42,252 bases of DNA from a virus: IMG/VR virus record IMGVR_UViG_3300024353_000002, positions 1 to 42,252 of that record. One strand, given 5' to 3'. A program made the position numbers and the translations under genes. This document shows positions 6,184 to 28,530 of the stretch, one piece after another (position 1 is the first letter of the stretch; every line of letters starts with the position of its first letter). The notes beneath the pieces were generated by a model. The model saw nothing but the letters and a program-made list of their open reading frames with translations, did not search any database and was not told where the DNA came from.

Positions 6184-6563
6184 TCTGAAATACCGCACTC
6201 GACCTGTGCGGTGGGAAGCAACTCTCTCCAAAAGGAAAGCCGGGAAGCTTTCAACCTTTTATTGAAAGTTGCTTCCCGGCTTTCCTCAATTTTAAGTCTA
6301 TCTGTGCGGTGGGCGAGCACTCCGGTCAAAAGAAGAGAGGGCTAGCTCTCAGACTCTCGCCCGAAAGTGCTAGCCCTCTCTTTAACTATTTTTACTCTAA
6401 ACCTATTTTAGAAAGGTGATTTTCCTGATTATTATTCCCTCCCTCACTAAGAATTACTGCACTCGACCTGTGCAGTGGGCGAGCACCTTGTCTAAAAAGC
6501 GAGAGGGGTGAGCTCCCGAGCCTTCTTAGCTCAAGAGTGCTCACCCCTCTCTTTAACTACTCT
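6184..6563 (-). promoter_or_regulatory. Leader A: three terminator-like hairpin units ahead of the virion genes
   Basis: Unit 1 has a 15-bp hairpin (6234-6248 with 6271-6285) and an 11-base strand at 6213-6223 exactly complementary to 6267-6277. Unit 2 has a 13-bp hairpin (6334-6346 with 6369-6381). Unit 3 has a 13-bp hairpin (6501-6513 with 6539-6551). Units 1 and 3 also have a small stem, ACCGCAC/GTGCGGT or ACTGCAC/GTGCAGT, around the fixed seven-base loop TCGACCT (plus-strand reading). The C/G to T/A change on both sides keeps the stem. Read on the minus strand, each main hairpin is followed by a strand that can open it, then the small stem. Most of it recurs at 15160-15394. Confidence 0.75.
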
Positions 6564-7967: not shown

Positions 7968-8573
7968 TCACCATGACACCTCTTTGAGCAGGTTATCGAA
8001 AGTTCCCTTGGCGACATCCTCAACCACCCTGGCAGCCACATCGGTCATAGCTTCGGCGTGGGCTTTGGATAAATCCTCGGCAGAACCAGTCTGACGGTAC
8101 TCCCGGTGGTGTCCCAGCTCGTGCACCAGGGTGTCCACCGTGGTGCGCCCGCTGTAGAGTTGGTCAAGATTGATGTAGATTACCCCTGTGGTAGTACCAT
8201 AGAGACCGGCCGTCCTCACACGGTCGCTGGCGGGAGGGATAACAGCCGCATATACGGATACTGGGGTGGCTACCACTCTAGCCAGCTTCAGGTGGCTTAG
8301 TTGTCGTGAGCCCAGTTTCTCATCCGGGACAACCTCTGCGCTCCTTAGCCGTTTTTGGGAGTCATTTATAATATCTGCATCAGTGGGAATTGATTTTCCC
8401 AGCCCGTTTAGTTCTTCTTGAGTGAAACTTACTGACTCATAGCCAAGGTGTTTTATAGTGTTGTCAAATTTCCCACTAGTACGGATAACTGCGTTCTCGG
8501 GAAGCTCCTTGGGCTTCCGCGGCACTCGGGGTTCGGGGATTTCAGGCTTAACCTCTGGGGTGGGTGTAACCAT
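7968..8573 (-). CDS. HExxH zinc metalloprotease
   Basis: 201 residues. HELGHH at residues 151-156 is the zincin HExxH motif; H172 or E174 in AHAEAMTD could be the third zinc ligand. The first 60 residues are proline-rich and likely disordered. Its ATG follows the TAA of the large upstream ORF in the same frame, so it is translationally coupled and could be a readthrough domain. In a late virus operon a protease of this kind may mature virion proteins or open the host envelope. The substrate is unknown. Confidence 0.85.
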   Translation of the reverse strand: MVTPTPEVKPEIPEPRVPRKPKELPENAVIRTSGKFDNTIKHLGYESVSFTQEELNGLGKSIPTDADIINDSQKRLRSAEVVPDEKLGSRQLSHLKLARVVATPVSVYAAVIPPASDRVRTAGLYGTTTGVIYINLDQLYSGRTTVDTLVHELGHHREYRQTGSAEDLSKAHAEAMTDVAARVVEDVAKGTFDNLLKEVSW

Positions 8574-10700
8574 TTAACCCCCCTTGGCTCTGGCTATTGC
8601 TGTTTCAAAGGCTGTGTCCAGCTTCTCCCGGTACCCGATATCGTCTATGGTGAATGCTAAGTATTCTGGGGAGTCGGAGACAAACTCCAGCTCCTGTTTG
8701 GGGCTTGGGAGTAAAGGCTCGGTGGGAATGACGGCAGGTTCTAAATTACTAGGCTTGTGAGCTACTATTGTATCTTCAAAGACACGGTTAGTAGTTATAC
8801 CATCAGTAACCTCAACTTCTAGTATAGGTTGACCCCCCCATGTAGTAGTATAAACTCCCTTGACAGTAAGCCAGGGTAAGCCCCCAATTTCTTTCCATGC
8901 ACTGGATTTAACCTTGTCACCTACTCTTAGGGATTTTTTGCCATCGGTGGGGATGACGGCTGATGATAGCTCTCTTTGCAATTCAGGATAATCCTTCAGC
9001 ACTTCAGCAGCCACGGGCTTGCCTTCTTTAAGTGCTCTTTGTACAGCTGTTTTGTGAGAGCGGTAAGTCTCGCCATAGCCCGCTTTTATCCAATCTATTC
9101 TAGGCTTTCCATGTCCATACTTACTTGCCTCAGCATAGGCATACTCTTCAAGCGTCATCTGCCACGGCTCTTTCAAACTAGACGGCTCGGTGGGAATGAC
9201 GGCGGGCATCCCAGCCTCGGCTCTGGGGATTGCTGGTATAGTCTTCTCTATCCTATCTGCATCCCGTCTGGCTTGCCTAGCATTTTGATTTAATATTCTA
9301 GCTTTGCTTTCAGTTGTAGCTAATGCCCTTGCCTCCGCTTCATTTGCCTGTCTTCTCAACTCTGCTACAAATGCTCTCGCAGCAGGTATATTATCTGGAT
9401 TAGCAACAAGTTCCCTCCCCCTCTTTATGACACCTTTGGTAATATCAATAACCTCTGGGGTAACAGGTGTAACTGCCACTTTTCCCCACAAGCCCGGGTG
9501 TTTCGCCTTGTAGTGGTGTCTGAGCCAGGCTATTCTCTCGGGGAACTTACCCTCCTCGAGGAGCTCCTTCGGTGCGCACTCGCCACACTGTCGGCAACAA
9601 AACTTTCTCAGGGGGTCGCCTTCAGTGGCAGCCAGAAGATTGATAATGTCCGGGGGGAAGGTCCCTTCCTCTACTGTTAACCCTATAATTGCTTTCTTTC
9701 TTGCCCATAGCCCGCCACTAATATAATCAATATCTCTATCGTCAACGCCTGCAAGGTAAAGCACTCTCATTATCATGTCAAGCTTCTGCGGGTTCTGTTT
9801 ACAGAATTGCGTTAGTTTGGATAAATCCTTGACGGTAGCCAGAAACTCTAAATCAGAGAAGGATACTTCCTTTGGTTGATGCACCCATTCCCCTGAATCC
9901 ACCATTTTATCCATTGTTACAACATCTAACCTTACCCGTTTGCCCTCTGGCTCATAAGTGACTACCCACTTCCTATCAGCCCCAGCATAAAAATCAAGTA
10001 TTACTTCGCCTCTCGGAGTTTTGAACACATCCCCCACCTTAAAAATTCCCTCTTCGGGTAATGAAATTGTCTCACTCTGGGGGAGTCGTCTGGGTTTCCC
10101 CTCTTCCCAGACTTCGCCGGTCGCTGGATTCTGCCCCAGCTTTCTGACCCTCTCGTTTTCCTTGTTAAAGGATTCCTTGAGGACGAGGTCATCAAAGTAA
10201 AAGACAGTCTGGCCAGGGCTCAGGACCCTGACGTATTTTTGGCTGGTAGTTTGGGTAGAATAAACAGGGGCTATCCTAAAGGCCTTGTGGAGACCTCGTC
10301 TTCTCAGCTCGCTCAGTAGTTGGTCTCCCGTAGTCGTTGGCTGATAGGCTGGCAAGTGGCCGTCTTGGAGCCTGAAGGTGTCCTTGGGATTCGGAGTGTA
10401 AATACCCTGGATTTCTAACCTTGGTTCGTAGCCTCGTCTGTAGCTTCGCAGGTCAATAACGGAATATTCTTTGTGAGCCTTGGAGTAACCCTCAATCGGG
10501 TGTGGACGAGTTGCTTCTGTGACGTAAAGAACATCATCGCGCTGCAAGCGCTTTACTGGAGTGAAAGGAATTGGCTCTCTCTCTCCAGCCAGTTGCTCAT
10601 CAGTGAGTTTAGGGTTGCCAGTAGTAGAATACTGTGCAGTGCCCCCATGCTGCTCATGAGTAGCCGCCAGATACTTAGACTCTACCTGACGGCCAGTACT
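8574..10700 (-). CDS. Large late protein, made as a -1 frameshift extension of the 10682-11275 gene
   Basis: The frame is open from just upstream of 10700, but its first usable start is a TTG at 10547 without a ribosome-binding site, although the preceding 51 codons look coding (KYLAATHEQHGGTAQ, PKLTDEQLAGERE). Entry by a -1 slip at A AAA AAA (10706-10700) would give a 708-residue extension and a 900-residue fusion with the three-helix membrane protein. Residues about 365-400 hold a cluster of cysteines and histidines (CCRQCGEC...HHYKAKH), a probable zinc site. No ATPase or portal signature is visible. It is the largest protein of the element and probably structural or DNA-delivering. Confidence 0.85.
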   Translation of the reverse strand, partial: STGRQVESKYLAATHEQHGGTAQYSTTGNPKLTDEQLAGEREPIPFTPVKRLQRDDVLYVTEATRPHPIEGYSKAHKEYSVIDLRSYRRGYEPRLEIQGIYTPNPKDTFRLQDGHLPAYQPTTTGDQLLSELRRRGLHKAFRIAPVYSTQTTSQKYVRVLSPGQTVFYFDDLVLKESFNKENERVRKLGQNPATGEVWEEGKPRRLPQSETISLPEEGIFKVGDVFKTPRGEVILDFYAGADRKWVVTYEPEGKRVRLDVVTMDKMVDSGEWVHQPKEVSFSDLEFLATVKDLSKLTQFCKQNPQKLDMIMRVLYLAGVDDRDIDYISGGLWARKKAIIGLTVEEGTFPPDIINLLAATEGDPLRKFCCRQCGECAPKELLEEGKFPERIAWLRHHYKAKHPGLWGKVAVTPVTPEVIDITKGVIKRGRELVANPDNIPAARAFVAELRRQANEAEARALATTESKARILNQNARQARRDADRIEKTIPAIPRAEAGMPAVIPTEPSSLKEPWQMTLEEYAYAEASKYGHGKPRIDWIKAGYGETYRSHKTAVQRALKEGKPVAAEVLKDYPELQRELSSAVIPTDGKKSLRVGDKVKSSAWKEIGGLPWLTVKGVYTTTWGGQPILEVEVTDGITTNRVFEDTIVAHKPSNLEPAVIPTEPLLPSPKQELEFVSDSPEYLAFTIDDIGYREKLDTAFETAIARAKGG

Positions 10701-10706
10701 TTTTTT
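10661..10706 (-). promoter_or_regulatory. Programmed -1 frameshift signal
   Basis: Minus strand: slippery A AAA AAA in the correct register of the upstream gene (ACA AAA AAA GTA), a four-base spacer, and a 10-bp stem TGGCCGTCAG (10695-10686) / CTGGCGGCTA (10670-10661) with two G-U pairs and a 15-base loop. The zero-frame TAG lies in the loop. Confidence 0.8.
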
Positions 10707-11275
10707 GTCTCTGGAAGCCTAGTTCCCCCGCGCTCTATGTACTTCACGGCTGGCCCTCGGACAATTATAGCTATCCCAATAATCCCGATAACGCTAACAA
10801 TTAATATCGGTAACAGTGCTTGGCTAATTGTCTCGATCTTCATAATACCGAAGGCAATTAGCCCGATGGTGAAAAGGGGAACGAGAATTGGGATGATAAT
10901 CTGCCACTGGGGTGACCCTTTTTGCAAAACAAACTCAGTGGTGGGTATGCCCTCAACCAGTGCGGCAGTTGGTCTAGTTAGATGGCAACCAGTTTCCACC
11001 ATTCCCAGGAACATGTAGTCGAGCTCCTCTTCAGTTGGCATGCCTTCGGTGCAGATGGTTATTCTGGCTTTCTGTCCCATATCAATAGTGGACTCCATCA
11101 CCTCAAGAGCAGTAGCAAGGTCTTCTCTGGAATAGCCGACTATCTCTGCGACTTCCATAGGATACCTCCCTTCGGTCTCTGTCGGCCGTGCGGCAACGTT
11201 AATAAGTAGGCTGGTAAGCGCCCCTATTGCAGTGCTGAAAATAAAGTGCTCCGGCCGCAGATAACCTTCATCCAT
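10682..11275 (-). CDS. Three-helix membrane protein, zero-frame product of the frameshift pair
   Basis: 197 residues, ATG 11275. Helices lie at about residues 10-27, 125-142 and 150-170 (ALLPILIVSVIGIIGIAIIV); the loop at 35-120 is acidic with two cysteines. It ends ETKKVLAVR after the slippery lysine codons, and a -1 slip at those codons replaces VLAVR by the long extension. A promoter lies so close upstream that the mRNA may be nearly leaderless. Likely anchors the 900-residue fusion in a membrane. Confidence 0.85.
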   Translation of the reverse strand: MDEGYLRPEHFIFSTAIGALTSLLINVAARPTETEGRYPMEVAEIVGYSREDLATALEVMESTIDMGQKARITICTEGMPTEEELDYMFLGMVETGCHLTRPTAALVEGIPTTEFVLQKGSPQWQIIIPILVPLFTIGLIAFGIMKIETISQALLPILIVSVIGIIGIAIIVRGPAVKYIERGGTRLPETKKVLAVR

Positions 11276-11338: not shown

Positions 11339-11713
11339 TCACTTCCCCTTCTTCTCTTTACGCTCAGTCATGATAGCGTTATAGGCTTCAGTTGCTTGCT
11401 GAAATTTCGTGGGGTCTGGTTTAGTCCCTGTATCGGGGTGGTATTCTCTGGCTAAAGCGCGGTAGGCTGACCGAACCACCACATCCATAGCTTCAGGGTG
11501 AATGCCGAGTATAAAGTAAGGGTTATCAGGTGCTAACTCTCGCTCCTCGGGACCGGCAAACCAATTGGCTGCCTTTTTTGCTAACTCCTCGCCAAAGATA
11601 TTTATCGTCCTTCCGGCGACATACTTTAGACGCCTGCCGGTGCAGATGTAGAGGATATCATCGAAGTTTCTCAAGCCTTTCTTAAATTGGGTTGCTCTTG
11701 TTTTTGTTGCCAT
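11339..11713 (-). CDS. J-domain (DnaJ-like) protein
   Basis: 124 residues, ATG 11713 with AAGGAGG. The C-terminal 65 residues are a J-domain: NPYFILGI, helix II ending in YHPD (HPD at 92-94), then KFQQATEAYNAI. J-domains recruit and stimulate host Hsp70 (DnaK). The first 55 residues are specific to this protein and may choose the client. Lying between a transglutaminase-like protein and the frameshifted membrane fusion, it may bring DnaK to virion assembly or entry. A J-domain protein encoded in a virus late operon is uncommon. Confidence 0.88.
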   Translation of the reverse strand: MATKTRATQFKKGLRNFDDILYICTGRRLKYVAGRTINIFGEELAKKAANWFAGPEERELAPDNPYFILGIHPEAMDVVVRSAYRALAREYHPDTGTKPDPTKFQQATEAYNAIMTERKEKKGK

Positions 11714-12611
11714 AGGTTACCTCCTTGGCCATTACCTCTGCCATTTCCACAGGCTTCAAATCAAACTCACGAAGCCCGATATCTGTGGCAAAACAATACT
11801 GATCATTAAACATGCCGTGTAGGATATATTTACCCCTGGATGATTTCTCCGGTCCAGCGGTAGCTTCTAAGATACGGTCGTCGCCGTCCTCTCCCTCGGT
11901 TATGTCCCACATATGACCGGTTGTCTTATCGCCCATTTTCCACAGGCCGAAGGCGCAGTAGACCTTGTCCGGCGGAATATAGTTTCGGAGGATGCTACAG
12001 AGAAGAATGGACTTGTCGTCACAGTCCCCCGCCGTCTCTGCCAAAGTCTCTTTAGGTTCGGCCCAGTAGTCGCCAACCTCGGATCGGTAAGTGGTAAAAG
12101 AATTAACGAACTCCTGGGCGGCAGTGATGAAATCAGGGGCTTGCACCAGCACCCTGGCGATATCCCTTACCTCCGGATCGTCTGGTTGCACCAGTGAGCG
12201 GATAGAATGATACTTTTGGTCATACCGCACATCGGCTAAGAGGTCATCATACTGTTGAAGTTTGCTATCCCCGGCGACTATGGAAATGGCGCCATTTTTC
12301 AGCATCTCTTTCACCGCCACCTGGTCAGTCTTAAAGTAAGCCATAGCTTCCTCCATTGTTCTAAAAGTTTGAGTGGATTCTTTGACGGGATACCAGGGGA
12401 AGGTTCCCTCTAGCTCACGAGCATAGTCCTCTACCGGGACATATTCTACCGGGGGTCCGAAAACTGTGTGGTTGACAAGCCATCCCATGAAGGACAAGCC
12501 AGTACGCCCGCCGCTTCTGAAGATAGGTAACGCGAAGGACTCCACTGCTAGAAGCCCGAGAAACAAACGAGGAGCGACCCTTTTTAATTCCTTAACTCTT
12601 TCAGGTTCCAT
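11682..12611 (-). CDS. Transglutaminase-like cysteine protein
   Basis: 309 residues; ATG 12611 lies inside the end of the preceding gene. C197 in GDCDDKS, H233 in TGHMWDI and E249 in ILEATA match the Cys-His-Asp/Glu triad of transglutaminase-like peptidases. A hydrophobic N-terminal segment (residues 14-30) may anchor it. In phages this fold is often a protease or structural crosslinker; here it could process or crosslink virion proteins. Its C-terminus overlaps the J-domain gene by 32 bases. Confidence 0.82.
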   Translation of the reverse strand: MEPERVKELKRVAPRLFLGLLAVESFALPIFRSGGRTGLSFMGWLVNHTVFGPPVEYVPVEDYARELEGTFPWYPVKESTQTFRTMEEAMAYFKTDQVAVKEMLKNGAISIVAGDSKLQQYDDLLADVRYDQKYHSIRSLVQPDDPEVRDIARVLVQAPDFITAAQEFVNSFTTYRSEVGDYWAEPKETLAETAGDCDDKSILLCSILRNYIPPDKVYCAFGLWKMGDKTTGHMWDITEGEDGDDRILEATAGPEKSSRGKYILHGMFNDQYCFATDIGLREFDLKPVEMAEVMAKEVTYGNKNKSNPI

Positions 12612-15159: not shown

Positions 15160-15394
15160 ATTACTGCACTCGACCTGTGCGGTGGGAAGCAACTCTCTCC
15201 AAAAGGAAAGCCGGGAAGCTTTCAACCTTTTATTGAAAGTTGCTTCCCGGCTTTCCTCAATTTTAACGAGCACTCCGGTCAAAAGAAGAGAGGGCTAGCT
15301 CTCAGACTCTCGCCCGAAAGTGCTAGCCCTCTCTTTACTTAATAGACTAAACCTAAATTAGAAAGGTGATTTTCCTGATTATTATTCCCTCCCT
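15160..15394 (-). promoter_or_regulatory. Leader B: second copy of the hairpin leader, ahead of the first late gene
   Basis: It repeats most of 6191-6445. The small stem (15163-15169 with 15177-15183, one T-G pair) encloses the same TCGACCT loop. The 11-base strand at 15184-15194, the 15-bp hairpin at 15205-15256 and the 13-bp hairpin at 15287-15334 also recur, as does the stretch before GGAGGGAAT (15350-15394). Compared with leader A it lacks unit 3 and a short piece between the two hairpins. It ends directly at the ribosome-binding site of the gene at 15141. Confidence 0.75.
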
Positions 15395-24799: not shown

Positions 24800-24831
24800 G
24801 GGGGGAGCGGATTTCCGCTCCCCCCTTTTTG
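24800..24831 (+). terminator. Intrinsic terminator
   Basis: GGGGGGAGCGG pairs with CCGCTCCCCCC, then TTTTTG. Ends the operon before the pilin unit. Confidence 0.85.
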
Positions 24832-24880
24832 TCCAAAAATTGACAATTACACCCCAAAAAGTAACATTACTTTTTACCTA

Positions 24881-24909
24881 TTGCATTCGTGTGGGAGGTG
24901 CGTTATACT
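24881..24909 (+). promoter_or_regulatory. Promoter of the pilin gene
   Basis: TTGCAT (24881-24886), 17-bp spacer and TATACT (24904-24909). Confidence 0.7.
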
Positions 24910-24916
24910 TTGGTAT

Positions 24917-24935
24917 ATTGTCTCGGCGAGACAAT
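24917..24935 (+). promoter_or_regulatory. 19-bp palindromic operator at the pilin transcription start
   Basis: ATTGTCTCG-G-CGAGACAAT, perfect, beginning about eight bases after the -10 box. A dimeric repressor there would block the start. Confidence 0.7.
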
Positions 24936-25077
24936 TACTACCTCAAGAGTAATAAAAATGAAGAAAGCCGAGGTACCGTTGCTAGTGGCTCTCGGCTGAA
25001 AGGGGGTAATGCTAAGAGTAACCGCATCACATTTTCAGTATACCACAGAAAAGTCTTAAAAGAAAGGAGGTAATACC
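24936..25077 (+). promoter_or_regulatory. Structured leader of the pilin mRNA
   Basis: About 140 bases. AGCCGAG pairs with CTCGGCT around a 16-20 base loop, followed by GAAAGGGGGTAATG and a small GGT/ACC hairpin; AAGAGTAA occurs twice. It may be regulatory, but I cannot match it to a riboswitch class. Confidence 0.4.
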
Positions 25078-25533
25078 GTGACGAGGTTTCTAAAATCGTT
25101 CCGCCATGGTGAAAAGGGATTCACGCTAATTGAACTCCTAATCGTGATTCTCATCCTCGGTGTCCTGGCGGCAGTAGTAGTGCCCAATGCTGCTAGGTTC
25201 CTGCAGTCGGGACAAAAAGGAGCCGCCGAATCAGAGCTGGGTAGCGTTCAGGTAGCAGTGTATGCCGGTATGGCTGACGCCGGCGTAGGGACTATCGACG
25301 GAAGTGATGCTGTTTCTAGTGCCGCTGGCGGTGGCGTGATTAACGCCGACCCAGCGATTGATATAGGTGAGTACCTCCAGGGTAGCATTGCCCGACTCAA
25401 GGGAAGCTGGACAGTTGACGAAACTGGCTTAGTTACCGACGGTACGTTCCCAGACAGTAGCACGACCGAGACCTATTGGGCGTATACAACACCTGAAGAC
25501 ATACCCACGTGGACTCATTACCCGACGGCGTAA
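25078..25533 (+). CDS. Type IV prepilin-like protein
   Basis: 151 residues, GTG 25078 with AAAGGAGG. EKG-FTLIELLIVILILGVLAA is a complete prepilin signal: Gly before the cleavage site, Phe after it, Glu at +5, then the hydrophobic helix. The rest is a small pilin-type head ending TTPEDIPTWTHYP. The host PilD peptidase and assembly ATPase would be needed, as none is encoded here. The gene is a single unit with its own promoter, operator and terminator, suiting a prophage-expressed surface-changing gene, for example to hide the pilus receptor. Confidence 0.9.
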   Translation: MTRFLKSFRHGEKGFTLIELLIVILILGVLAAVVVPNAARFLQSGQKGAAESELGSVQVAVYAGMADAGVGTIDGSDAVSSAAGGGVINADPAIDIGEYLQGSIARLKGSWTVDETGLVTDGTFPDSSTTETYWAYTTPEDIPTWTHYPTA

Positions 25534-25541
25534 GAAGACTT

Positions 25542-25626
25542 ATGGCGGGCTCTGCCAGGGGAAACAAGGGTTCTAGGAGTTAGCAGCTCCCTAGAAGGGT
25601 GAAGCACCCCTCCCGTGTGCCGCCAT
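25542..25626 (+). ncRNA. Structured RNA candidate downstream of the pilin gene
   Basis: ATGGCGG (25542-25548) pairs with CCGCCAT (25620-25626), enclosing TTCTAGGAG/CTCCCTAGAA and GGGTG/CACCC stem-loops. It resembles a closed multi-branch fold. Bases 25627-25736 continue without a gene. Class unknown. Confidence 0.4.
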
Positions 25627-25736
25627 TGGCGTAATCGGGCAAGTGGCATCCCGCCGCCAGTTAGGGAATACTAAACCATTAACCAACCCTGAAAATGCTT
25701 GGATTTTGATTCTGGTGCGTCTGCTGTGGCAAAACA

Positions 25737-25777
25737 GGGACTCTGAGCGATGTCAGCTTAGAGTCCCCCCTTTTTTA
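25737..25777 (+). terminator. Intrinsic terminator of the pilin unit
   Basis: GGGACTCTGAGC pairs with GCTTAGAGTCCC (one G-U), then CCCTTTTTT. Confidence 0.85.
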
Positions 25778-25803
25778 TCCCTAAAATTGACCAAAGGGGG
25801 GGC

Positions 25804-25833
25804 TTGACAAGCTACCCCGAAGTGTAATAGACT
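25804..25833 (+). promoter_or_regulatory. Promoter of the excisionase-like gene
   Basis: TTGACA (25804-25809) with TAGACT 18 bp downstream (or TAATAG at 15 bp). The start codon at 25841 lies about where transcription would begin, suggesting a leaderless mRNA. Confidence 0.55.
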
Positions 25834-25840
25834 ATTACGT

Positions 25841-26056
25841 ATGAAAAGAACAACTGGAACTGACAGTAACTTTGTCAATCTCTCAGAAGCTAGTCGGCGA
25901 CTGGAGATTAGCTATGTAACCCTCTGGCGATGGATAAAGCAGGGGAAGGTTACCCCAGTAAGACTTTTAGGGCTACCTTTCCTAACGCTTGATCAAGTGG
26001 AGTCTCTGAAGAAGGAGAAAAACAAGCAAGCCACCGGGGTTGAGCCGGTGACTTGA
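25841..26056 (+). CDS. MerR/excisionase-type helix-turn-helix protein
   Basis: 71 residues, ATG 25841 with no ribosome-binding site. LSEASRRLEISYVTLWRWIKQGKVTPVRLLGLPFLTLDQVESL is the short winged HTH of excisionase/MerR-like proteins: helix-turn-helix followed by a strand pair that sets the wing. Such proteins act as recombination directionality factors or repressors. It is the nearest such gene upstream of the canonical integrase. Confidence 0.85.
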   Translation: MKRTTGTDSNFVNLSEASRRLEISYVTLWRWIKQGKVTPVRLLGLPFLTLDQVESLKKEKNKQATGVEPVT

Positions 26057-26140
26057 ACAAGGAGACAATGAGGCCGTGCAACCTCAAACCTTATATTATT
26101 CTAGCACGATGAAATAAAAGAGTAAAGGAAAATTCTAAAT

Positions 26141-26395
26141 ATGAACACTGACGAAGACGAAGACAAGAAACGCCATGAGGCAGAAGAGCTACTTAAACCA
26201 AAGCTAACCGATGAGTTTCTAGACACATTGGTTCAAGCAGCTAACACCTGCAACTGGAGTGTTGATTTTATAGAAGCCGCGTATTTCGTTGATTGGTGTT
26301 TCAATGTCGCCGGCAAGCCAATACCCCCTCTCGATGTCTATAACGATGAGGAAAATAATAGTCGGAGGGAGGCTGCCAGAATAAACAGTAAGTGA
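26141..26395 (+). CDS. Small acidic protein, unknown
   Basis: 84 residues, ATG 26141 with AAAGGAAA. Acidic N-terminus (NTDEDEDKKRHEAEE), then helices LTDEFLDTLVQAANTCNW and VDFIEAAYFVDWCFNVAG. Ends in overlap with the next small frame. No family recognised. Confidence 0.75.
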   Translation: MNTDEDEDKKRHEAEELLKPKLTDEFLDTLVQAANTCNWSVDFIEAAYFVDWCFNVAGKPIPPLDVYNDEENNSRREAARINSK

Positions 26396-26446
26396 ATAGG
26401 GAAAATTCTAAGAGCAAAACTCACAGAAGGAAAGCCAGAGGAAAAG

Positions 26447-26617
26447 TTGAGAGGATTAAATATCATACGACACCCCGATACAAGACTTTGGAGATGGGCC
26501 ATTATCAGAGCGTGGAGCTGGTTAGTTAACCATAAGCTAATGCCCCGGTGGTTACATTCCTTGGTGATGCGCTTTCTGTATAGGAATGTGGTGAGAGTGG
26601 ATGAAGACAAAGTTTAA
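26447..26617 (+). CDS. Small basic protein (tentative)
   Basis: 56 residues if it starts at TTG 26447, which has AGAGG upstream; the frame is open further back to 26397 without a normal start. RHPDTRLWRWAIIRAWSWLVNHKLMPRWLHSLVMRF reads as an amphipathic basic helix protein. A second frame from GTG 26392 (45 residues, basic) overlaps it, and I cannot decide which is translated. Confidence 0.4.
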   Translation: MRGLNIIRHPDTRLWRWAIIRAWSWLVNHKLMPRWLHSLVMRFLYRNVVRVDEDKV

Positions 26618-26741
26618 GTTTAAGAAGCCTGTAGAAATAAAGGCTGGAGAGGGAGTCAGGCTAACAATACAGGCAGAATTAGACCCCAATAGCTTGATTC
26701 CCAGGAAAATCAAGAAGGTGCGAATAGGGAAACAAAAGTGA
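26601..26741 (+). CDS. Small lysine-rich protein (tentative)
   Basis: 46 residues, ATG 26601. KTKFKFKKPVEIKAGEGVRLTIQAEL then IPRKIKKVRIGKQK: a basic beta-rich peptide. Its TGA overlaps the GTG at 26738 that opens the methyltransferase frame. Confidence 0.5.
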   Translation: MKTKFKFKKPVEIKAGEGVRLTIQAELDPNSLIPRKIKKVRIGKQK

Positions 26742-26764
26742 GAACCAGACTTTTAGCTAGGCAG

Positions 26765-26846
26765 TGGGGAAGGGGGGATTTGAACCCCCACGCCTTTCGG
26801 CACCAGAGCCTAAATCTGGCCCGTCTGCCAATTCCGGCACTTCCCC
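26765..26846 (-). tRNA. tRNA-Leu(UAG)
   Basis: Minus strand, 82 bases: acceptor GGGGAAG/CTTCCCC, D stem CCG/CGG, anticodon stem CCAGA/TCTGG with loop TTTAGGC (anticodon TAG), a class II variable arm GCC-GAAA-GGC, and T stem GGGGG/CCCCC with TTCAAAT. Discriminator A; CCA is not encoded. All stems pair, so it looks functional. It reads CUA codons. It lies antisense to the 5' end of the methyltransferase frame. Confidence 0.93.
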
Positions 26847-26879
26847 GAATACAACATGATCCTAAGTCATGCTGTATTC
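26847..26879. repeat. 13-bp inverted repeat touching the tRNA 5' end
   Basis: GAATACAACATGA (26847-26859) and TCATGCTGTATTC (26867-26879), one mismatch, seven-base spacer. It begins at the base next to the tRNA. Could be a recombinase core site, an operator, or a 5' processing hairpin. Confidence 0.6.
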
Positions 26880-27628
26880 ATCATAAACCAAAACTATTAG
26901 ACCTCTTTTGCTGCGCCGGTGGTGCTTCTGTAGGCCTAGCAAGGGCTGGTTTTGAAGTAACCGGTGTCGATATAAAACCTCAGCCAAATTATCCCTTCAA
27001 GTTCATCCTTGCTGATGCTCTAACCTGTCCACTTGATGGCTATGATGCTTATTGGGCAAGTCCAATTTGCAAGGGCTTCACTAAGGCCAAGTCTATTTGG
27101 AAGCGAGAATATCCTGACCAAATTACACCTATCCGACAGCGATTATTGGCTACAGGCAAGCCCTTTATTATAGAGAATGTCCCAGGAGCACCGTTAATTA
27201 ACCCCCTCACACTTTGCGGAACTATGTTCGGCCTGAAAGTGAAACGGCACAGGCTTTTTGAGCTTCATGGTTTTGAAGTCTGGTTTTTGCCTGCTACTTG
27301 TGCCTGTAAAGGCAAAGTCGGCTATACGGCTGCCAGTGATGGCTTTTCCAGCTTTGCCAACAAAGCCAAACTCATATCAGTTGCAGGGCATAACTTTTGT
27401 GTGAAAGATGCCAAACAAGCTATGCAGATTGATTGGATGCCTCAATCCGAGCTTTCACAGGCAATCCCACCGATTTATGCGGAGTTCCTGGGTAAACAGC
27501 TCATAAACGCACTAGCAATAGACCCCCCACTTAAGTACCAACTGAGCCAGCTTTGCTCAGTTGGTTTTTTATTTGCATCGCCCACGATGGCAGGGTATAG
27601 AACAGTGGATGAGGAGGTGTCATCGTGA
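26876..27628 (+). CDS. C5 cytosine DNA methyltransferase (phage Dcm type)
   Basis: About 250 residues. Motif I LLDLFCCAGGASVGLARAGF binds S-adenosylmethionine; YWASPICKGF holds the catalytic cysteine (motif IV, here SPIC for PPC); IIENVPGA is motif VI (ENV); VKRHRLFE is motif VIII. The start is unclear: the frame opens at GTG 26738, but that part is complementary to the tRNA. I begin it at ATT 26876 for lack of an ATG/GTG/TTG. The end is odd too: a perfect terminator lies inside the last 30 codons, and the frame then overlaps the integrase start. Probably protects virus DNA from host restriction. Confidence 0.85.
   Translation: MHHKPKLLDLFCCAGGASVGLARAGFEVTGVDIKPQPNYPFKFILADALTCPLDGYDAYWASPICKGFTKAKSIWKREYPDQITPIRQRLLATGKPFIIENVPGAPLINPLTLCGTMFGLKVKRHRLFELHGFEVWFLPATCACKGKVGYTAASDGFSSFANKAKLISVAGHNFCVKDAKQAMQIDWMPQSELSQAIPPIYAEFLGKQLINALAIDPPLKYQLSQLCSVGFLFASPTMAGYRTVDEEVSS
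27538..27570 (+). terminator. Intrinsic terminator inside the methyltransferase 3' end
   Basis: CCAACTGAGC pairs perfectly with GCTCAGTTGG, seven-base loop, then TTTTTT. Confidence 0.85.
27573..27601 (+). promoter_or_regulatory. Integrase promoter
   Basis: TTGCAT (27573-27578), 17-bp spacer and TATAGA (27596-27601), directly after the terminator, so the integrase is transcribed separately. Confidence 0.65.
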
Positions 27629-28530
27629 GGACAGAGCAAGCTACCAATAATTTTCTCGACTCCCGCACCGCGGCTAACCTGAGCCCGGTAACTATCACTT
27701 GGTATAGAGACAAACTACGGCGATTTGCCCAAGCTTGTCCCGAGCTCCCGGAAGAACCGAGCCCTGTTGAAGCATTCCTATCCAAGGTGCAGGGCTCCCC
27801 CGAAAATAGGCATGCCTATTTCAGAGCTCTAAGAGCCTTCTATAGATTCATTAACGCCCGATACGGAACTGCCAACCCCATGGAAAAGGTTACCCCTCCA
27901 CGCTGCCCCAAGAAAGTCATGGCTACCCTCGAGCCCGAGGAGTCGATGAAGTTGCTTAACTCAGCATCAGACTTGCGAGCCAGGACAATATTGACCCTTT
28001 TTGTCGACAGCGGTATGCGGTCAGGCGAAGTAGCCAGTCTCCGCAAGCAAGACATCAAGACCGAGACAGTGACGGTTCGCGGCAAATGTGGCCAGCGTGA
28101 AGTGCCCATCAGTGACGAGACAAGGAGATTGCTCCTCACCCTCATAGCTCAAGATGGGAACGACGAGTATGTTTTCCTTGGCCACAAAGGGCATTTAACC
28201 AGGCACGGTATCTACCACATTGTCCGTGCTCACATGGAAAAGACCGGCATCCCTGGACCAAAGCTTGGTGGTCACCGTATCAGGCATGCCTTTGGCAAGG
28301 GCTACTTAGTAAACGGCGGTGACCTTCGCTCCCTGCAAAAGCTTATGGGTCACGCCAACATATCCACCACCGAGAAATACGCTGCGCTAAATCTAACAGA
28401 TGTTATCACCAAGCATCAACGCTTTACCCCTCTCCGAGCTGCCCATGCCGCAGCTCAGGAGAGCTTTTTTGATACACACCTAGCCATAAAAGAGGCTGAA
28501 GCCATATTAAAGGAGAAAAGGTGTCTATAG
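27625..28530 (+). CDS. int: Tyrosine recombinase/integrase (XerC/D type)
   Basis: 301 residues, GTG 27625 with GAGGAGG. The N-terminal SAM-like domain covers residues 1-95. The catalytic residues are complete: R132 (SGMRSGEVASL), H217 and R220 (GGHRIRHAF), H243 (LMGHANISTTEKY) and nucleophile Y252. Likely integrates the circle into the host chromosome; the tRNA-Leu and inverted repeat 750 bases upstream are candidate attachment sequences. With its own promoter after a terminator it can be expressed independently of the lytic genes. Confidence 0.93.
   Translation: MRTEQATNNFLDSRTAANLSPVTITWYRDKLRRFAQACPELPEEPSPVEAFLSKVQGSPENRHAYFRALRAFYRFINARYGTANPMEKVTPPRCPKKVMATLEPEESMKLLNSASDLRARTILTLFVDSGMRSGEVASLRKQDIKTETVTVRGKCGQREVPISDETRRLLLTLIAQDGNDEYVFLGHKGHLTRHGIYHIVRAHMEKTGIPGPKLGGHRIRHAFGKGYLVNGGDLRSLQKLMGHANISTTEKYAALNLTDVITKHQRFTPLRAAHAAAQESFFDTHLAIKEAEAILKEKRCL

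Follow-up and report, generated by a model that had tools for sequence, protein, structure and literature searches.

We identified, on the minus strand of a 42-kb uncultured virus record, a slip signal that is very probably real and not a sequencing error. Judged from the sequence, a −1 programmed ribosomal frameshift at this site is highly likely to produce a membrane-anchored fusion to a large modular protein. The window referred to below is the whole stretch of DNA analysed (positions 1–42252), and L002 is an independent virus contig (IMGVR_UViG_3300024262_000007) that covers the same site. The locus is laid out in the window as follows:

10682–11275, minus strand: zero-frame membrane protein, 197 aa from ATG 11275, ending in KKVLAVR-stop, with a homologue in L002
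11158, minus strand: alternative start ATG of the membrane protein, preceded by the Shine–Dalgarno sequence GAAGGGAGG, giving a product of 158 aa
10700–10706, minus strand: slippery heptamer A_AAA_AAA (zero frame ACA AAA AAA), identical and in the same register in L002
10661–10695, minus strand: predicted hairpin with a 13-bp stem (10695–10683 with 10673–10661) and a 9-nt loop, after a 4-nt spacer following the heptamer
10682–10684, minus strand: zero-frame stop TAG, sharing bases with the end of the 5′ stem arm
8574–10706, minus strand: −1 frame of 710 codons (KKSTGRQVE...ARAKGG) plus stop (8574–8576), without a start codon at its front; it contains a C2H2-like Cys/His cluster, a PWQMT...EGKPVPAEVLKDYPEL module and a conserved C-terminus
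7968–8573, minus strand: downstream gene of 201 aa with a HELGH (HEXXH) motif, a candidate zincin-like metallopeptidase

Slip site and overlapping reading frames

The zero frame in the window ends in ACA AAA AAA GTA CTG GCC GTC AGG TAG, and its reading of ACA AAA AAA places A_AAA_AAA in the register for −1 tandem slipping. A heptamer of the form X_XXY_YYZ, as used in −1 programmed ribosomal frameshifting, is thus present in the window, and likewise in L002. The initial annotation had the membrane protein end just past an in-register A AAA AAA, and this was borne out, the stop TAG lying 8 codons after A7. Only three A7/T7 runs occur in the 42-kb window, and the one at 10706–10700 is the sole A7 in slip register within a putative late gene.

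After the slip, the −1 frame reads KKSTGRQVESKYLAA... and continues for 710 codons to the stop at 8574. Both the window and L002 contain a long open −1 frame that overlaps the zero-frame end and has no start of its own. No ATG, GTG or TTG was found in the first 53 codons of the window −1 frame, no Shine–Dalgarno sequence lies upstream of its first TTG (10547–10545), and its first ATG is codon 265; the long start-less frame described previously was therefore recovered. Position-specific GC content in the 53 start-less codons (0.60/0.49/0.40) was broadly like that of the remaining frame (0.56/0.43/0.47). In the other late genes read in their correct frame (g430 set aside), the −1 frame beyond the stop stays open for 128 codons at most. 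The predicted fusion comprises 900 aa, the length given in the initial annotation, or 861 aa if translation begins at the internal ATG 11158. A weak TAGG is located ~12 nt upstream of A7 in the window, with no counterpart seen in L002; an upstream Shine–Dalgarno-like stimulator, an optional element as in dnaX, was dropped from consideration as not conserved.

A predicted hairpin downstream of the heptamer

Folding of a 71-nt piece with RNAfold gave a stem of 13 bp with a 9-nt loop, 4 nt past A7 (MFE −25.6 kcal/mol, z −3.55), and none of 200 dinucleotide shuffles was as stable. A second control used synonymous recoding, and only 6 of 3000 and 4 of 3000 versions folded as stably, the figure of 6 being that for codons of the −1 frame swapped for synonyms at the virus's own usage. 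The 4-nt spacing agreed with the initial annotation, whereas the 10-bp stem and 15-base loop proposed there were replaced by the longer stem and shorter loop found by RNAfold. The zero-frame stop, earlier placed in the loop, straddles the stem end and the loop: its G is in the loop, and its U and A are paired in the stem. A stable predicted RNA structure of 13–14 bp, a few nucleotides downstream of the heptamer, is common to the window and L002.

Conservation of the signal in a diverged relative

The membrane proteins of the window and L002 are identical at 85 of 141 aligned residues (~60%), and neighbouring genes are also common to both. In L002 the zero frame ends in TCA AAA AAA GCA CTG GCC GTC AGG TAG, so that the tail KK[V/A]LAVR-stop is shared, and the −1 frame reads KKSTGRQVEKENYLAA... 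and is open for 831 codons. The −1 peptide KKSTGRQVE..YLAA is retained in both genomes. L002 has no start codon in its −1 frame for 187 codons, and the first GTG there has no Shine–Dalgarno sequence. L002, the one relative covering the site, therefore provides neither a start codon nor a ribosome-binding site for the long frame, and it keeps the slippery run, the hairpin and the −1 frame; either a start or the loss of the run in relatives would have spoken against the original proposal. Conservation thus extends to one diverged relative, two genomes covering the site in all.

Both stem arms are base-for-base identical between the two genomes, so no compensatory stem changes were found and the stem offers no covariation readout. 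In L002 the hairpin is closed by one additional pair, and 3 nt are inserted between its arms (MFE −23.2, z −4.02). Between A7 and the loop the two genomes differ by a single substitution, which is synonymous in the −1 frame but replaces Val with Ala in frame 0; translation of the −1 frame would lead one to expect this pattern. The cassette is conserved even though the modules on either side of it differ: L002 has an extra segment of ~85 codons directly before A7 and, after A7, a region with a weak ferritin-like match, an ArdC N-terminal domain and an M78 peptidase domain.

Constraint was also visible at the codon level. Among residues identical between the window and L002, the same codon was used for 12 of 13 at the site, as against 30 of 81 in the membrane protein, 38 of 102 in the downstream gene and 65 of 131 in the transglutaminase-like gene. 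The binomial chance of 12/13 at a background of 0.35–0.4 is about 3e-5 to 1.4e-4, a value that applies to a segment picked because it looked conserved. A further 17-nt identity between the window and L002 (ACAGTATTCTACTACTG) is found at the next module border, and shared ancestry or recombination at borders may therefore contribute to the local DNA identity. Shared ancestry or recombination leaves the start-less −1 frame and the exact A7 unexplained.

Probable ribosomal slipping and alternative explanations

The retention of A7, hairpin, −1 frame and codons in L002 argues against a homopolymer error, chance or a hidden start. Under the preferred mechanism of −1 programmed ribosomal frameshifting, most ribosomes would end the small membrane protein at TAG 10684, and a fraction would pause at the 13-bp hairpin while AAA AAA occupies the P and A sites. 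These paused ribosomes would slip one base back on A_AAA_AAA and read 708 more codons, yielding a fusion that carries the membrane segments N-terminally and the large modular protein C-terminally. Lacking a start codon at its front, the long protein would exist only as a membrane-anchored fusion. The slipping itself, its ribosomal nature, its efficiency and its purpose are what we infer here, and the terms 'late protein' and 'virions' of the initial annotation are to be read in the same way.

As the main competing explanation, the same product could arise by transcriptional slippage on the homopolymeric A run, with RNA polymerase adding one A or losing two on A7 so that some mRNAs encode the fusion in a single frame, and the hairpin could assist such an event. 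Transcriptional slippage has been linked to A runs longer than 7, and the same study measured frameshifting of about 10% for a 7-A cassette in a reporter (PMC3711429). The run is exactly seven in both genomes, and together with the tandem-slip register and the conserved hairpin at 4 nt this favours ribosomal slipping; we regard the transcriptional route as unlikely.

Considerably less probable is that the long frame is initiated non-canonically or re-initiated, giving two separate proteins; candidate sites are CTG 10670, within the 3′ stem arm, and TTG 10547. The CTG belongs to YLAA and is conserved in L002, and the zero-frame stop is 12 bases upstream, but a CTG start is of a rare kind, would lie inside the 13-bp stem without a Shine–Dalgarno sequence, and would leave unexplained why the −1 peptide KKSTGRQVE, upstream of the CTG, is conserved together with its codons. 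For TTG 10547, the absence of a Shine–Dalgarno sequence and the 187 start-less codons of L002 speak against its use.

An indel, through sequencing error or decay, with the true gene being one continuous frame or dead, is very unlikely: homopolymers are a classic site of error and the window is a contig from an uncultured virus, but exactly A7 recurs in the same register, with the same stop and frame relation, in an independent contig whose membrane protein is only ~60% identical, 710 and 831 codons are still open, and the KK[V/A]LAVR-stop tail is conserved too.

The membrane protein and its start

The second in-frame ATG, at 11158, is preceded by the strong Shine–Dalgarno sequence listed above, which is conserved in L002. 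Translation from ATG 11158 would give 158 aa with two helices, and from ATG 11275 three helices. L002 encodes the N-terminal hydrophobic segment as an ORF apart (30 aa, 2672–2764), which TAG terminates; GAAGGGAGG and the start ATG of the main membrane protein follow. In the window (11158–11275, minus strand) the corresponding single-helix segment is fused in frame, with no TAG before ATG 11158. The conserved Shine–Dalgarno sequence and ATG, together with the separate ORF in L002, indicate that the anchor of the fusion would be at least a two-helix hairpin. The three-helix anchor initially proposed thus holds if the start is ATG 11275, and not from ATG 11158. With that Shine–Dalgarno sequence retained ahead of the internal ATG, a single frame may yield two products. 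A structure model of the membrane protein was of low confidence and had no significant PDB match.

The long frame and its relatives

Comparison of the two long frames by tblastn showed that their shared part is confined to the C-terminal 47 residues, which are 70% identical; visual comparison adds the beginning of the −1 frame and a short QYSTT block. The long frame of the window had no Pfam or PHROGs match, and its structure model was unusable (mean pLDDT 40). It contains a module of roughly 80–100 aa (PWQMTLEEY...EGKPVPAEVLKDYPEL) that is shared with a 2,566-aa virus protein of L003 and was matched in L003 to L005. In L002, the long frame matched ArdcN (2.3e-14) and Peptidase_M78 (3.8e-5) and carries a second HEXXH motif; several disparate domains are thereby combined in one chain, as in polyvalent proteins. 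Downstream of the long frame are the peptidase candidate, whose ATG abuts the stop of the long frame in both the window and L002, and genes for small unknown proteins; no tape-measure gene is among them.

Viral contigs were scanned with the membrane protein, the long frame, two DNA-motif patterns, a structural protein and the transglutaminase-like protein as queries. Two relatives came out of these scans: L002, which spans the site, and L010/L014, which begins downstream of it. The record IMGVR_UViG_3300020171_000140 (L014/L015) is closer to the window in the structural block, with 69–83% identity for several proteins, and its contig starts just downstream of the frameshift gene. Another contig, L006, matched a DNA pattern, but its frames and genes are unrelated and the match was discarded as chance. 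No relatives were found in scans of genome contigs. Searches of phage and plasmid proteins gave no match for the membrane protein or the window long frame, and the L002 long frame matched there over the ArdC/peptidase region only.

Genomic context

For the proteins of the window (1–42252) that were scanned against Pfam and PHROGs, no match to a terminase, portal or major capsid family emerged. A sliding clamp, a RecT-like protein, a DnaC-like loader and a Gp10-like baseplate domain were recognised. Adjoining the frameshift gene (11339–12611, minus strand) are a DnaJ-domain protein and a transglutaminase/CEP76-peptidase-like protein, which are among the best conserved of the group (67–70% identity to the L002 record). 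Two segments, 6305–6411 and 15267–15335, upstream of the 140-aa and 430-aa late genes, both match one stretch of the relative (L017 13415–13523) and look like a duplicated, conserved leader or promoter of late operons. A tRNA-Leu gene (26764–26846, minus strand) lies, in surroundings spanning 24800–28530, near a type IV pilin-like ORF (25078–25533) and ORFs that by eye are integrase-like (18629, 27625); an attachment site or DNA of host origin may be marked by this group.

Comparison with known frameshifting systems

The site resembles that of bacterial dnaX (A_AAA_AAG with a hairpin) in its A-rich tandem-slip heptamer, a hairpin a few nucleotides downstream and a zero-frame stop soon after. 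It differs in its heptamer, A_AAA_AAA, in having no conserved Shine–Dalgarno-like stimulator and in the unrelated gene; moreover, the −1 product is an extension of 700–800 codons, whereas that of dnaX is a truncation. In the portions of the literature considered here (PMC5009743, PMC10885494), phage frameshifts are mostly those of tail assembly chaperones and of capsid or tail extensions, with Cro among the further cases. Like the G/GT tail chaperones and the Ig-like extensions of capsid and tail proteins (reviewed in PMC5009743), the present case concerns a gene of a viral structural region with a minority, C-terminally extended product. Here, however, the zero-frame product is a membrane protein, the extension is far longer, and neither fusion part matches a tail or capsid family; a tail assembly chaperone of the G/GT kind is not indicated, neither part having a PHROGs or Pfam tail match.

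In its logic the arrangement is similar to retroviral gag-pol, in which a small abundant protein is accompanied by a rare, long, enzyme-carrying fusion that is the only route to the long part. Unlike gag-pol, it would belong to a DNA virus of prokaryotes, shows no sequence relation, uses a transmembrane-helix anchor and has a putative function. With polyvalent proteins (Iyer et al., 2017, PMC5512222) it shares the ArdC N-terminal and M78 domains of L002, the second HEXXH, the swapped modules and the module in common with the 2,566-aa virus protein, but the long frame has no start codon, and ribosomes would enter it by shifting out of a membrane-protein gene. The main text of PMC5512222 uses neither 'frameshift' nor 'transmembrane', and a literature search on polyvalent proteins together with frameshifting gave a single paper, which mentions frameshift once. 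The portions of the phage frameshift literature considered (PMC5009743, PMC10885494) contained no precedent for fusing a polyvalent-type protein to a membrane anchor. As a recoding device the signal is of an ordinary kind, unlike the pair of parts it would join and its apparent role as the sole route to the long protein.

Biological implications

Of the possible purposes, a gag-pol-like one seems most likely, such that few effector copies would be tethered among many small membrane proteins, and the tethered effector is possibly cut loose by the peptidase encoded directly downstream. More tentatively, and with somewhat less than even confidence, we suggest an undescribed lineage with gag-pol logic in a prokaryote DNA virus, in which −1 frameshifting would extend a fixed minority of a small membrane protein to give a polyvalent effector that swaps modules, is tethered to the membrane and is released or trimmed by the adjacent downstream metallopeptidase, with the frameshift cassette as the fixed joint for module exchange. 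If the proposed frameshift is true, annotation pipelines would miss the N-terminus of such proteins. The cassette is compact, at about 60 nt, and the shift is apparently the only way to make the largest protein of the gene cluster, tying that protein to a membrane anchor. This suggests that the loading or anchoring of effectors is under stoichiometric control in a group of viruses for which the protein scans recognised no terminase, portal or capsid gene.
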